Source of the DNA: an uncultured Fidelibacterota bacterium
GTDB taxonomy: Bacteria; Fidelibacterota; Marinisomatia; Marinisomatales; TCS55
Assembly: GCA_913049685.1 (NCBI GenBank)
Contig: CAJWZD010000007.1
Location: 1 to 64,000, forward strand
DNA: 64,000 nucleotides
Direction: 5' to 3'
Part shown: piece after piece, positions 4,787 through 62,460 of the stretch
Numbering within the stretch: position 1 is the stretch's first letter
Layout: each line of letters begins with the position of its first letter
Made by a program: the position numbers and the translations under genes
The notes under the pieces: model-generated
What the model was told of the DNA's origin: nothing
The model's database searches: none
Seen by the model: only the letters and a program-made list of their open reading frames with translations

Positions 4787-7099
4787 TTACAATTTAACGG
4801 ATACATTTATAAATGTATTTCGTTCCGCTCCTGGCCAATAAAACGCATTATAACCATTATAATCATAACTGTATCCATATGTGGAATATAGCTTATTCAA
4901 TGCATTGTTAATTTTTAATGATACGTTGACCATTTTCCAAGAAGCATGAACACCTAAATTTAATACGACAAAACTATTTATATATCCGTCTTCAGAATTT
5001 ATGTTGTCGATATACATGCCACCTATTTTTCGATAGTGTGCAAATAATTGCAAATTATCTGAAAAATTGCGGCTTAAAGATATATTCATCATGCTAGATG
5101 GGGTATTAGGTAAAAAATTACCGTTGTTGAAAACGTTCATTTGAAGAGCACCATTAATTCCAAGTGTTGTATTGCTATCAATAAATATTTTTGATTCATA
5201 TTCAAAGCCACTATGAGTTGTCGAATCAGCAGAGTAATAAGAATATTCACCCTCTTGTGAAAGGTTGATATTTTTTAACTGTTCATTAAGGTAGAGCATC
5301 CTGTAGCCATTTATTTTCGCATAACCATTGTTAAAAGTAAAATTCATTCCTAATTCCAGATCGGTAATTACTTCATTGGCAGCCATTACTGGTTTGCTAA
5401 ACATATCGTCTGCTGCAATTATTTGATTATCTGCAGGTTCTTTTTGCGCTTTACCAGTATTAACAAACCAGCTAAGGGAATCACTTAGTTCCCATACGAG
5501 ACCAATTCGAGGGTTTAAAAAATTCCAATTTGCACTTAATTCATGTCCTGCTGCATGGCCAATCTTTTTTTGATTGAGATCCCAGTTAATATTTTGATTC
5601 TGCAGATCAATCGAAACTGCAAATGGTTGTTTTACTGGGGCCCAAATTAACCTTGTAAATGCCGTAAGAATATTTTTCTTTCCCAGGTACTGATAATACC
5701 GATGCCACTCACCAGCAAAACGTGCATTCAATGAAGGGTCTGAAAACTGAGAAGCTTCACCAAAATGATCACCGGCATAAAATCGCACCTCTCCTCCAAT
5801 GTCAAGGCGATAATTGTTATCGGAGATAGTAATCATTGGAACTAAGCCATAATAACTGTTATCAATCCATTTTCTTCTTAATAAATCAGTATTTGCAGAT
5901 TGCTCACTTTCATCACTCATGACATTATTTATGTCAAGGTTGTAAGAATAAAAATCTTGATCTGCCTTAAAAACTTCGTAGTAGCCGCGACCAGTAACAA
6001 GGTACGATATATTCCTAAATGAAATGTTATTGGTTATTTTAGCTGAAGAGTTCAGTGAAAAAATTTTCTGTAAAAAATCGTCAGTATAGGCTTTATAGCT
6101 ATCTCTTCGTTTTGTACGATCTTCAATGTCTGATTGCTTCTCTCCGTTAAGAAAACCGGCAATACCATCCCAGGAAAGCTGGGTATTTTCGTAACCAATT
6201 AATACTCTAAATTGATTTTTTATAACTGACCCTCTATGCTCAAGACCAAAGAATATTCCTCTTTGCTTAGATCCGTGAAATTTTCTGTAACTATCTGAGT
6301 TAATAGATGAGGCTCTTAAAACTAAACTGGTGTTTTTTCCCAAATCTTTTCCAGATTCATATTTTATACGCGCTTTTGAAGTATTGTAACTCCCCAATCC
6401 TTGTGAAAATTCAATATTTCTTTTATCGCTTTGAATTTGAGTTCTAACATTTATAGAGCCACCAAACGATGAGGAGCCATACAGGTTAGTGCCAATACCC
6501 CTTTGGATTTGAATATCCTTAGTATCAGCTAAAAGATCTCCATGATCGACCCAATAAACTTGATGACTTTCATTGTCATTCAATGGAACTCCATCTAACA
6601 ATACTGCGATGCGACTTTGGTCAAACCCACGAATTGATGCGTAGGAATACCCTGTACCATTACCACTTTCACTGTAAGACCAAACTCCTGGCTCAGACGC
6701 TAAAACCATCGGTATATCTTGGGCTGTATATTTCATGCTTATTTCATCCATTGTCAAGGTGGAGAAGGATACTGGTGTGAGGCCTGAAATAGCTCTGTAT
6801 GCACTTACATCTATAGAATTACCAATCAAGGATACGGGTTGAAGAAAAATATTCATATTTTCACTAATTTTAAGCTTTAAGGACTGATATCCGATGTGCG
6901 AGAAAGTAATCGAATCGTTTTTTTCAGCATATAGAGAAAATTTTCCATCTTTATCTGATGCGGTACCTCTTTCAGCTGCAATAATATTGACATCTGATAT
7001 AGGTAGTTTCGTTTGATTATCTAAAATTAACCCACTAATCTGAAAAGATTGAGCTGGTAAAAAAGTAAAATAAAAAAGAAAAGTAAATAACTTATACAT
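4787..7099 (-). CDS. TonB-dependent outer-membrane receptor, candidate thiamin/thiamin-precursor transporter
   Basis: Signal peptide, carboxypeptidase-regulatory-like N-terminus (SGLILDNQTKLPISDVNIIAAERGTASDKDGKFSL), plug domain (YASIRGFDQSRIAVLLDGVPLND...GSSSFGGSINVRT), beta-barrel C-terminus; preceded by a TPP riboswitch. Confidence 0.93.
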   Translation of the reverse strand: MYKLFTFLFYFTFLPAQSFQISGLILDNQTKLPISDVNIIAAERGTASDKDGKFSLYAEKNDSITFSHIGYQSLKLKISENMNIFLQPVSLIGNSIDVSAYRAISGLTPVSFSTLTMDEISMKYTAQDIPMVLASEPGVWSYSESGNGTGYSYASIRGFDQSRIAVLLDGVPLNDNESHQVYWVDHGDLLADTKDIQIQRGIGTNLYGSSSFGGSINVRTQIQSDKRNIEFSQGLGSYNTSKARIKYESGKDLGKNTSLVLRASSINSDSYRKFHGSKQRGIFFGLEHRGSVIKNQFRVLIGYENTQLSWDGIAGFLNGEKQSDIEDRTKRRDSYKAYTDDFLQKIFSLNSSAKITNNISFRNISYLVTGRGYYEVFKADQDFYSYNLDINNVMSDESEQSANTDLLRRKWIDNSYYGLVPMITISDNNYRLDIGGEVRFYAGDHFGEASQFSDPSLNARFAGEWHRYYQYLGKKNILTAFTRLIWAPVKQPFAVSIDLQNQNINWDLNQKKIGHAAGHELSANWNFLNPRIGLVWELSDSLSWFVNTGKAQKEPADNQIIAADDMFSKPVMAANEVITDLELGMNFTFNNGYAKINGYRMLYLNEQLKNINLSQEGEYSYYSADSTTHSGFEYESKIFIDSNTTLGINGALQMNVFNNGNFLPNTPSSMMNISLSRNFSDNLQLFAHYRKIGGMYIDNINSEDGYINSFVVLNLGVHASWKMVNVSLKINNALNKLYSTYGYSYDYNGYNAFYWPGAERNTFINVSVKL

Positions 7100-7101
7100 A
7101 G

Positions 7102-7200
7102 TTTTGATTCCTACGCTGGCATTACCCAGATCAGGTATTCGGGTTTAATCTCAGCCGTTACAACCTGGTTATATAACAGCACCCCAGGACTACAAAATTA
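7102..7200 (-). promoter_or_regulatory. TPP riboswitch (THI element)
   Basis: Minus strand reads TCCTGGGGTGC...GGCTGAGATTAAACCCGAATACCTGATCTGGGTAATGCCAGCGTAGGAATC, containing the conserved CTGAGA, ACCTGATCTGG and TAATGCCAGCGTAGG blocks; sits right before the ATG at 7099. Confidence 0.96.
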
Positions 7201-13015: not shown

Positions 13016-13744
13016 TTAGATGGCTTTAAACCGTTTATTTAGAGTGTAATATAAAAAATAAGCAGCATAAAAGTGTATTAAAGCTACGAACTCTCCAACG
13101 AAAATATACCATGGCCATGGTCCCATTAAGTCAAGTAAAGATCCAGCTGGAGGTTTATCCATCAACCAAAAATAATTCGATTCAAAGATCATATTGAAAA
13201 TTAAAACTATAATTAAAAAAACATTTAAAGCAATAAATGCACTTTTTAATCCAGAGATTGTAGGTTTAAAATCAAAAACTACAACATAGTAAATTATTGT
13301 GATAACTAATAAGTGATGAGCTGCAATGAACCTAAAATAATGAAAGTGGGGAAAATCATGAGTTATATCAGGTGTGAAAATGGCTTGAAACATTGCTGAC
13401 ACGCCCCAATAGAATAATACTTGAAAGAGAACGCCATTTTTGTTTAAAACTGCAAAAGGAAGAGCAAGGTTTGCAAATCTACATAAGTGGAGTGGCAGAT
13501 GAAGCTTTAGGTCAAATGAGCCAGCTATTATTTCAAGAAGCACCCAAATGGGAAAATTTATAAAAACAAAAAAGACTAAAAAGTAGCTTGTTATGTTTTT
13601 GAGAGATCTAGAAAAGAATTTTTTTGCAAAAAATGGTAAAAAAAATGCTGCAAGAAAAAATAAAATAATTGAAATCCAATGAGAGATGCCAAAAAGGTGA
13701 AATGGCTCGTAATCATTAAGATATCTACTCACCTGATCGCGCAT
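13016..13744 (-). CDS. TIGR02206/YwaF-like integral membrane protein
   Basis: FHLFGISHWISI...LPLHLCRFANLALPFAVL...ALFTPD-like segment QAIFTPDITHDFPHFHYFRFIAAHHLLV: pattern of the YwaF-like family. Confidence 0.8.
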   Translation of the reverse strand: MRDQVSRYLNDYEPFHLFGISHWISIILFFLAAFFLPFFAKKFFSRSLKNITSYFLVFFVFINFPIWVLLEIIAGSFDLKLHLPLHLCRFANLALPFAVLNKNGVLFQVLFYWGVSAMFQAIFTPDITHDFPHFHYFRFIAAHHLLVITIIYYVVVFDFKPTISGLKSAFIALNVFLIIVLIFNMIFESNYFWLMDKPPAGSLLDLMGPWPWYIFVGEFVALIHFYAAYFLYYTLNKRFKAI

Positions 13745-13960: not shown

Positions 13961-14131
13961 TTACTTCTTCTTTGCTGGAGCTTTTTTAGCTGCGGTCTTC
14001 TTTGCTGGAGCTTTTTTAGCTGCAGCCTCCGTTTTCGATGAACTCTTTGCTAAAGATGCCTTTTTTAGCTCTTTCATCCTTTCTTTATTTTTTCGATGTT
14101 TTTTTGAAACTAATTTTTGTTTTTTATTCAT
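13961..14131 (-). CDS. 56-aa Lys/Ala-rich basic protein (histone H1-like tail)
   Basis: Manual translation: MNKKQKLVSKKHRKNKERMKELKKASLAKSSSKTEAAAKKAPAKKTAAKKAPAKKK*. Below the ORF-track size cutoff. Confidence 0.75.
   Translation of the reverse strand: MNKKQKLVSKKHRKNKERMKELKKASLAKSSSKTEAAAKKAPAKKTAAKKAPAKKK
13966..14023. repeat. 30-nt-period tandem repeat, two copies, within the basic-protein gene
   Basis: TCTTCTTTGCTGGAGCTTTTTTAGCTGC is identical at 13966-13993 and 13996-14023; encodes the AAKKAPAKK repeats. Confidence 0.9.
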
Positions 14132-14163: not shown

Positions 14164-14256
14164 CGGGAACGCCTGGGAATTGAACCCAGCTCCTGATTTA
14201 TCGGCAGGACAACGGTGTTGAAGACCGCGAGGGGCACCAGCCACCCAATCATTCCC
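14164..14256 (-). tRNA. selC: tRNA-Sec (anticodon UCA)
   Basis: Minus strand GGGAATGATTGGGTGGCTGGTGCCCCTCGCGGTCTTCAACACCGTTGTCCTGCCGATAAATCAGGAGCTGGGTTCAATTCCCAGGCGTTCCCG: acceptor GGGAAUG/CGUUCCC, anticodon arm GCGGU-CUUCAAC-ACCGU, long variable arm UCCUG/CAGGA, T arm CUGGG-UUCAAUU-CCCAG, G discriminator. About 93 nt. Confidence 0.93.
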
Positions 14257-14274
14257 ATATTTCAACAAATATTG

Positions 14275-15114
14275 TCATTTTGGGCTATTGATTATACGGA
14301 AATCTAAACCAAATTTAGATTTAAGACTTCTACCAATTTTATCTGCTTGATTTTTTGTTTCATATCTAACAACTCGAACGGCATGCAGCCTATTGCCATT
14401 TGAATTAATTCTGTGCACTTCAGTTGGAAATCCACTGCTTTGAAGCTGTTTTTTTAAACGATTTGCATTTTCATATTTACCAAAAGCTCCAACCTGAACC
14501 ACCCATGGCATGTATGCTTTTTTCTTTGATTTTGCTTTTGTTCGTTTAGCTTTGACTATTTTTATTCTTTCATTAACAGAATTTTTTTCAATACGAACCA
14601 GTCTGGAATCTTTTTTTGATGAAGGCGTAACTCCGAGATTATATTTTTTATAATCTAGCTTTGGATAAAGATCGCTAATTAGCGTTAAAGAAATTCTAGC
14701 AGAATCCTTTTCACCAGTTGCTATATATGAATTTATCATTAAATCGAGAGCTCTTTGATGAAAATCTGATTTTGGGTAATCAAAAATTGTTTTTTTTAAT
14801 TGCGCGCTTGCCTGAGAATATAAACCTCGAGCAAATAAATATTCACCAATCTTAATAGATGATTGAGATGCAAATTCTGAATCAGGAAAATTTTCTATTA
14901 CTTTTTTATATTGTGCTAATGACGCATCTCCATCGTTATTTATTAGTGCTTGAATATATTTCACACCAGGCTCATTTGGATATCTAGACAAAAGATCAGG
15001 TATGTTTTCTCTAACCTCGTCATATCTACCTTTTTCAATTAATGTTAGATAAAGATTTATATTCTGTGAATATGCAAAACTAAAAAAAATTAGGATGATA
15101 GCAAGCCGCTTCAT
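14275..15114 (-). CDS. tetratricopeptide protein with C-terminal SPOR domain
   Basis: Signal peptide, TPR-like repeats, C-terminal PWVVQVGAFGKYENANRLKKQLQSSGFPTEVHRI. Confidence 0.88.
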   Translation of the reverse strand: MKRLAIILIFFSFAYSQNINLYLTLIEKGRYDEVRENIPDLLSRYPNEPGVKYIQALINNDGDASLAQYKKVIENFPDSEFASQSSIKIGEYLFARGLYSQASAQLKKTIFDYPKSDFHQRALDLMINSYIATGEKDSARISLTLISDLYPKLDYKKYNLGVTPSSKKDSRLVRIEKNSVNERIKIVKAKRTKAKSKKKAYMPWVVQVGAFGKYENANRLKKQLQSSGFPTEVHRINSNGNRLHAVRVVRYETKNQADKIGRSLKSKFGLDFRIINSPK

Positions 15115-61413: not shown

Positions 61414-62460
61414 TCAACTTTTTTCAGATAATATTTTTTTTAATTTATCAATTTTCTTTACAGGGCTAGGGTCAGTGGAATGAAGCAATGCGCACCAATA
61501 ACTAACCCAATCACCAAAATGCAATAGATGAATAAATCTTTCTGTAAAATTTGGACCATCGATTTCGATTTTCTGCTGTAAAGATGGTATGTTGGTCAGA
61601 ATATTATTTGAAGCATCAATTCGCAATGAGTTTCTTGAGTTAATAGATTTATCTGAAATCCAAAGAATGGAGATTTTCTTTAAAAGCTCAGGATTTTCTT
61701 GCCAACCTACAATTTCATTATGATTCATTTCAGGGATATCATTATGATACGCAAGCATTTTTGAATTTTCACAAAATTGGCCTTTCCATCGTAACGCGAT
61801 AGCTGAAGTTGACCCATCCTCACCATAAATAACAGGAAGAGTGTCGTATATTTTTTGAGCGAGATTAAATGTTGGATTTTTATCGACACTTGTGGAATAC
61901 AAATCTCTAGCTAATTCCAGTGCTTCAATGGTTCCTGCAAGGTCATTTATCGCCTCACTTTCAGTTAGGTTTAATTTTTTTAATAAATATAAAAGAGGTA
62001 TAAATGAAAATGCTACAGCAGCTCTTGGTTGCAAACCTGAGGGTATTTCAACTTTGTCGTTATTATTTTTATCAAGCAGAAAAGAAAGCTCCCCGCCAGT
62101 AGTAATTCCAATTACTTTTGCTCCTTTAGCAATAGCATCATGGTATGCATTTAAGGATTCTTCTGTATTGCCTGAATATGAGGAACATACAACAATAGAA
62201 TTACTATTTACCCAATTAGGCAATTCATAGTTTCTATTTACTGTTAAAGGCAGTTTTAACGATTTTTTAACAAGTGACTTTGAAAGATCTCCTCCAATTG
62301 CAGAGCCCCCCATTCCGCAAACAACTATGTTTTGTGCATCACTATACGTATTGTTAAGCTTTATGTTTTCCCCGATTAATTTTGCATCTTTCATCTGTAA
62401 TGGAAATTCATATATGGATTGAAACATATTGCTCTTATCGATTGATTTATCTGTATTCAT
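61414..62460 (-). CDS. bifunctional phosphoglucose/phosphomannose isomerase
   Basis: VVCGMGGSAIGGDL, CSSYSGNTEESL, IPSGLQPRAAVAFSF. Confidence 0.92.
   Translation of the reverse strand: MNTDKSIDKSNMFQSIYEFPLQMKDAKLIGENIKLNNTYSDAQNIVVCGMGGSAIGGDLSKSLVKKSLKLPLTVNRNYELPNWVNSNSIVVCSSYSGNTEESLNAYHDAIAKGAKVIGITTGGELSFLLDKNNNDKVEIPSGLQPRAAVAFSFIPLLYLLKKLNLTESEAINDLAGTIEALELARDLYSTSVDKNPTFNLAQKIYDTLPVIYGEDGSTSAIALRWKGQFCENSKMLAYHNDIPEMNHNEIVGWQENPELLKKISILWISDKSINSRNSLRIDASNNILTNIPSLQQKIEIDGPNFTERFIHLLHFGDWVSYWCALLHSTDPSPVKKIDKLKKILSEKS

Follow-up and report, generated by a model that had tools for sequence, protein, structure and literature searches.

A selenocysteine tRNA gene with a non-standard eighth acceptor pair and its decoding genes in an uncultured Fidelibacterota bacterium

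A tRNA gene with the anticodon UCA in the genome of an uncultured Fidelibacterota bacterium raises the question of what UGA means in this organism: selenocysteine (Sec) at particular codons, an amino acid throughout the genome, or nothing lasting, the gene being a relic of a trait on its way out. We analyzed the stretch of 64,000 nucleotides that carries the gene (the window). ARAGORN called a single tRNA in the whole window, a tRNA-SeC(tca) on the minus strand, and the Rfam model for tRNA-Sec, RF01852, matched positions 14165 to 14256 of that strand over its full length (62.9 bits, E = 2e-10), well above the cut-off of 47 bits. This was the only match above the cut-off genome-wide, 11 further matches being weaker. 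Once G73 is joined to the Rfam match, the gene is 93 nucleotides long and covers precisely the interval originally given. The original prediction had described a tRNA of about this length with a UCA anticodon, a long variable arm and a G discriminator, and each of these was seen in the sequence. The 3' end reads G-CAAAA, i.e., CCA is not encoded, as had also been stated. The minus-strand interval is thereby confirmed as a genuine selenocysteine tRNA gene, and the coordinates of its parts and neighbors are collected in Table 1.

The acceptor/T helix has 13 layers, 12 of which are standard pairs. Layer 8 is A·G, exactly as the original prediction had read it. The extended D-stem has one bulge (nucleotide 14), a feature absent from the earlier description.

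Table 1. Features of the tRNA-Sec locus (positions in the window)
Feature	Positions	Strand	Basis
tRNA-Sec(UCA), 93 nt counting the discriminator G73 (14164), no encoded CCA	14164..14256	-	ARAGORN, RF01852
Anticodon UCA within loop CUUCAAC	14219..14221	-	ARAGORN anticodon position 36, sequence
Acceptor 5' strand GGGAAUGA; A8 (14249) opposite G66 (14172), non-standard pair	14249..14256	-	sequence, tRNA comparison
Acceptor 3' strand GCGUUCCC; pairs 1-7 all Watson-Crick or G-U	14165..14172	-	tRNA comparison
D-arm, 6 pairs (11-13/25-27, 15-17/22-24), loop UGGU, bulged U14 at 14243	14230..14246	-	sequence and covariation
T-arm CUGGG-UUCAAUU-CCCAG, 5 pairs	14173..14189	-	sequence
Upstream neighbor, TPR/SPOR-domain protein	14275..15114	-	Pfam SPOR, tblastn synteny
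Downstream neighbor, 56-aa lysine/alanine-rich protein	13961..14131	-	beside tRNA-Sec in 11/29 relatives' loci

A UCA anticodon would also suit a tRNA that reads UGA as sense throughout the genome, a selC*-tRNACys or an allo-tRNA, and non-Sec tRNAs of similar shape exist (PMC7609411). However, UGA is an ordinary stop in the window, as the original prediction had noted: it ends 17 of the 43 open reading frames of at least 200 amino acids, the others ending in TAA (19) or TAG (7). Moreover, G73, the six-pair D-stem, the RF01852 match and the co-occurrence of selA, selB and a Sec-containing selD all fit tRNA-Sec. We consider a code change or a non-Sec tRNA to have next to no chance of being correct, and the preference for Sec insertion over a code change, drawn earlier from the UGA stops, now has these genes behind it as well. 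Among the read-through candidates checked, the 64-kb window contained no UGA-containing selenoprotein gene; the strongest candidates appeared to be frames overlapping or lying antisense to others, or a tail entering the next gene near 61416.

The window likewise lacks selA, selB and selD, as had been observed, and all three sit on other contigs. A search of the genome, of the kind proposed with the original prediction, detected selA (C16:37105-38436, 524 bits) and selB (C16:35258-37069, 345 bits) as adjacent genes of the same orientation on contig C16. SelA matches PF03841 at 455 bits in Pfam. SelB has the GTPase and beta-barrel domains and SelB-wing_3 (PF09107), the mRNA/SECIS-binding winged helix. 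selD (409 bits) was found above the cut-off twice, each time with one in-frame UGA. The native gene, C14:31588-32514, reads MKSFNKIKLTQYSHGAG-U-ACKIGPKDLAQ, with the UGA at the Cys/Sec site. Since mnmH, coding for selenouridine synthase, is also present (310 bits), SelD probably feeds selenouridine as well. selA, selB, selC and selD were thus all found in the same bin. The bin (1.63 Mb, 52 contigs) is 79% complete with 3.3% contamination, and for this reason the linkage of all Sec parts to one organism is inferred. Two of the parts show affinity with the genus: the SPOR neighbor of the tRNA-Sec gene is closest to same-genus loci (65-77% identity), and in the tree C14 SelD and the same-genus copy form a fully supported sister pair.

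The second selD lies on contig C31. Two UGA-bearing selD genes in a bin that also carries mnmH might indicate that two Sec-containing SelD proteins divide the work, e.g., one serving Sec-tRNA and the other selenouridine. We regard such a division as very improbable. C31 is collinear with C14 over eleven consecutive genes in the same order (48-74% amino acid identity), a run that includes fumarase, a penicillin-binding protein and KorAB, and genes that are normally single-copy are among those duplicated. In the tree, C31 SelD does not join its own genus but falls among other families of the order. The collinearity and the tree placement argue against a duplicate, and because of them we interpret C31 as likely contamination of the bin by a member of a different family within the order.

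Apart from selD, in-frame UGA codons were found at the peroxidatic Cys of two Bcp-type peroxiredoxins, FTKASTSG-U-TTEGQGFRDE and FPKADTPG-U-TIQACGFRDI, the first of which also carries UGA in same-genus genomes. SelW-like CxxU genes occur in seven of eight relatives; in the 79% complete genome studied here we found neither a SelW-like nor an AhpD-type protein. The list of selenoproteins is a minimum, because it covers the stretches around the selenium genes rather than the whole genome. Together with the machinery and the Sec-containing selD, the two peroxiredoxins bear out the expectation that this genome probably makes selenoproteins. None of the outcomes named beforehand as refuting the original prediction, a genome lacking selA, selB, selD and conserved UGA-containing frames or a low covariance score, was observed.

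A bSECIS element next to the UGA had been named as a further check, and here the outcome differed between genes. For selD, a GGUCC-N-GACC hairpin is possible 3' of the UGA in most members, with minimum-energy folding of the short stretch sometimes preferring another fold. We counted synonymous sites in 21 selD genes from this genome and its relatives. The Gly codon at position 5 after the UGA was GGT in all 20 Gly cases, compared with 31% of Gly codons in the remainder of these genes. At position 8, Asp was encoded by GAC in 20 of 21, compared with 23% of the remaining Asp codons (binomial p = 5e-11 for Gly and 2e-12 for Asp, with relatedness ignored). These frozen synonymous sites, together with the folding, support GGUC...GACC as the apical stem of a predicted selD bSECIS. 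For the two peroxiredoxins, folding predicted no convincing hairpin 3' of the UGA.

We then considered how widely the trait is distributed. tRNA-Sec was found in 47 of the 61 genomes of the order and selD in 54, with UGA in nearly every full-length copy; in a sample of 198 genomes from the phylum as a whole, the tRNA-Sec model matched 124. In a tblastn synteny comparison, the same SPOR gene adjoined tRNA-Sec in 29 of 29 relatives' loci checked, which points to vertical inheritance of the tRNA gene. Similarity of this DNA to plasmids and phages was negligible. The genomes of family f15 (0.8-1.0 Mb, mostly >90% complete) are missing tRNA-Sec in all cases among those listed, and two of them (G050 and G060) are also without selD; the family has apparently lost the Sec trait alongside genome reduction. 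By these counts, selenoprotein synthesis is indicated for most members of an uncultured and probably marine bacterial order, with loss of the trait in a genome-reduced family.

Other features of the window were recorded along the way. The 56-amino-acid protein downstream of the tRNA has KKAPAKK repeats, a conserved N terminus and a variable tail, and it gave no Pfam match. Further along, 13016-13744 on the minus strand encodes a bacterial TMEM164-family protein (PF14808, 141 bits) that is conserved near tRNA-Sec in 10 relatives. A TPP riboswitch at 7088-7196 on the minus strand (RF00059, 55.4 bits, just above the cut-off) precedes a minus-strand TonB-dependent-receptor-like gene at 4787-7099, which suggests that the encoded protein takes up thiamine or a precursor through the outer membrane.

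The eighth acceptor layer and the D-stem bulge could be taken as early decay, i.e., the tRNA would be a relic in a lineage that is losing the Sec trait, much as family f15 has lost tRNA-Sec altogether. We parsed the structures of 118 tRNA-Sec genes of the phylum. Acceptor pairs 1-7 were standard in all 118, arguing against decay. Layer 8 was mismatched in 89 (A·G in 62, A·A in 17, G·A in 7, C·U in 2 and C·A in 1) and standard in 29 (U-A in 25, C-G in 4). The mismatch is also stable, with A·G in 50 of the 54 tRNA-Sec genes of the order. One bulged base in the D-stem accompanied 86 of the 89 mismatched tRNAs versus 8 of the 29 in which layer 8 is standard (Fisher p = 7e-14, relatedness ignored). 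The pairs of the bulged D-stem model covary over the 93 tRNAs that have the 33-nucleotide layout; a three-base linker in place of the bulge fitted more poorly. With the machinery and the UGA-containing targets intact as well, a relic is highly improbable. The comparison instead identifies A8·G66 as a common lineage trait and not a broken or decaying gene, since a layer-8 mismatch, usually together with a D-stem bulge, is present in 89 of the 118 tRNAs. A single tRNA-Sec of the actinomycete Embleya, read by eye, combines a layer-8 mismatch with a bulged D-stem; the form therefore probably occurs outside the phylum too. As for the 3' end, CCA is encoded in some tRNA-Sec genes of families f5, f7, f9 and f14 and of genus g4, most of the order being without it.

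Taken together, these results make it almost certain that the gene is the tRNA-Sec of a complete Sec-decoding system, with UGA targets in selD and the two Bcp-type peroxiredoxins and with A8·G66 and the bulge as a lineage-specific form. Following the established pathway, SerRS would charge tRNA-Sec with serine, SelA would turn the serine into Sec with selenophosphate supplied by SelD, and SelB would bring Sec-tRNA to UGA codons that have a hairpin on their 3' side. In this genome those codons would be the ones in selD itself and in the two peroxiredoxins, UGA elsewhere staying a stop. The components and the UGA targets are read from the sequence, and the biochemical steps are carried over from the families to which the proteins belong.

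A weak point of this reading is the eighth acceptor pair, which is cited in the discrimination between SelB and EF-Tu and is non-standard here (PMC7609411). According to a review, recognition by SelB in E. coli depends mainly on the 8-pair acceptor stem, which also makes EF-Tu bind weakly (PMC7609411). The phylum might accordingly have a distinct tRNA-Sec in which a purine-purine mismatch, coupled to the D-stem bulge, replaces the eighth pair and discrimination by SelB and SelA follows a different rule, but we find this doubtful. tRNA-Sec with 12-bp acceptor/T helices is already known (Santesmasses et al. 2017, PMC5330540). We view the mismatch-plus-bulge tRNA-Sec as a variant worth testing and no new class; a novel mechanism is not needed. 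The mismatched layer 8 is a naturally occurring case against which to test whether eight acceptor pairs are indeed the feature recognized by SelB. In other respects the system is the usual Sec-decoding trait of bacteria, here in a lineage that has received little study, and the finding is largely ordinary.

The lineage is likely Marinimicrobia/SAR406, because what we take to be the 16S target of probe SAR406-97 occurs exactly in 19 of the 61 genomes of the order, including one of the same genus. Three SAR406 single-cell genomes have been listed with SelD and no known selenium trait, i.e., as "orphan SelD" (Peng et al. 2016, PMC5029168, Table 1). They probably belong to the same phylum, and SelD is present both there and here; unlike them, the genomes studied here have the full Sec trait. 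If the lineage is indeed SAR406, the orphan status of those three genomes would probably reflect incomplete assemblies.

Compared with known Sec-containing SelD proteins, in which UGA occupies the Cys/Sec site of SHGAG-U-ACK and a bSECIS-like hairpin lies directly downstream, the selD gene has both features and no notable difference. The tRNA shares with bacterial tRNA-Sec (selC, RF01852, 8/5 fold) the UCA anticodon, long variable arm, G73, six-pair D-stem with a four-base loop, five-pair T-stem and eight acceptor layers; it differs in the non-standard A·G of the eighth layer and in the one bulged D-stem base. It also resembles the tRNA-Sec types with 12-bp helices (Cloacimonetes-type 7/5 and others, PMC5330540) in having effectively 12 standard pairs, and members of that set from the Clostridiales are reported to have a D-stem bulge (13a). 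In contrast to these types, eight residues rather than seven lie between the T-stem and G73 here, so that the thirteenth layer is present but mismatched.
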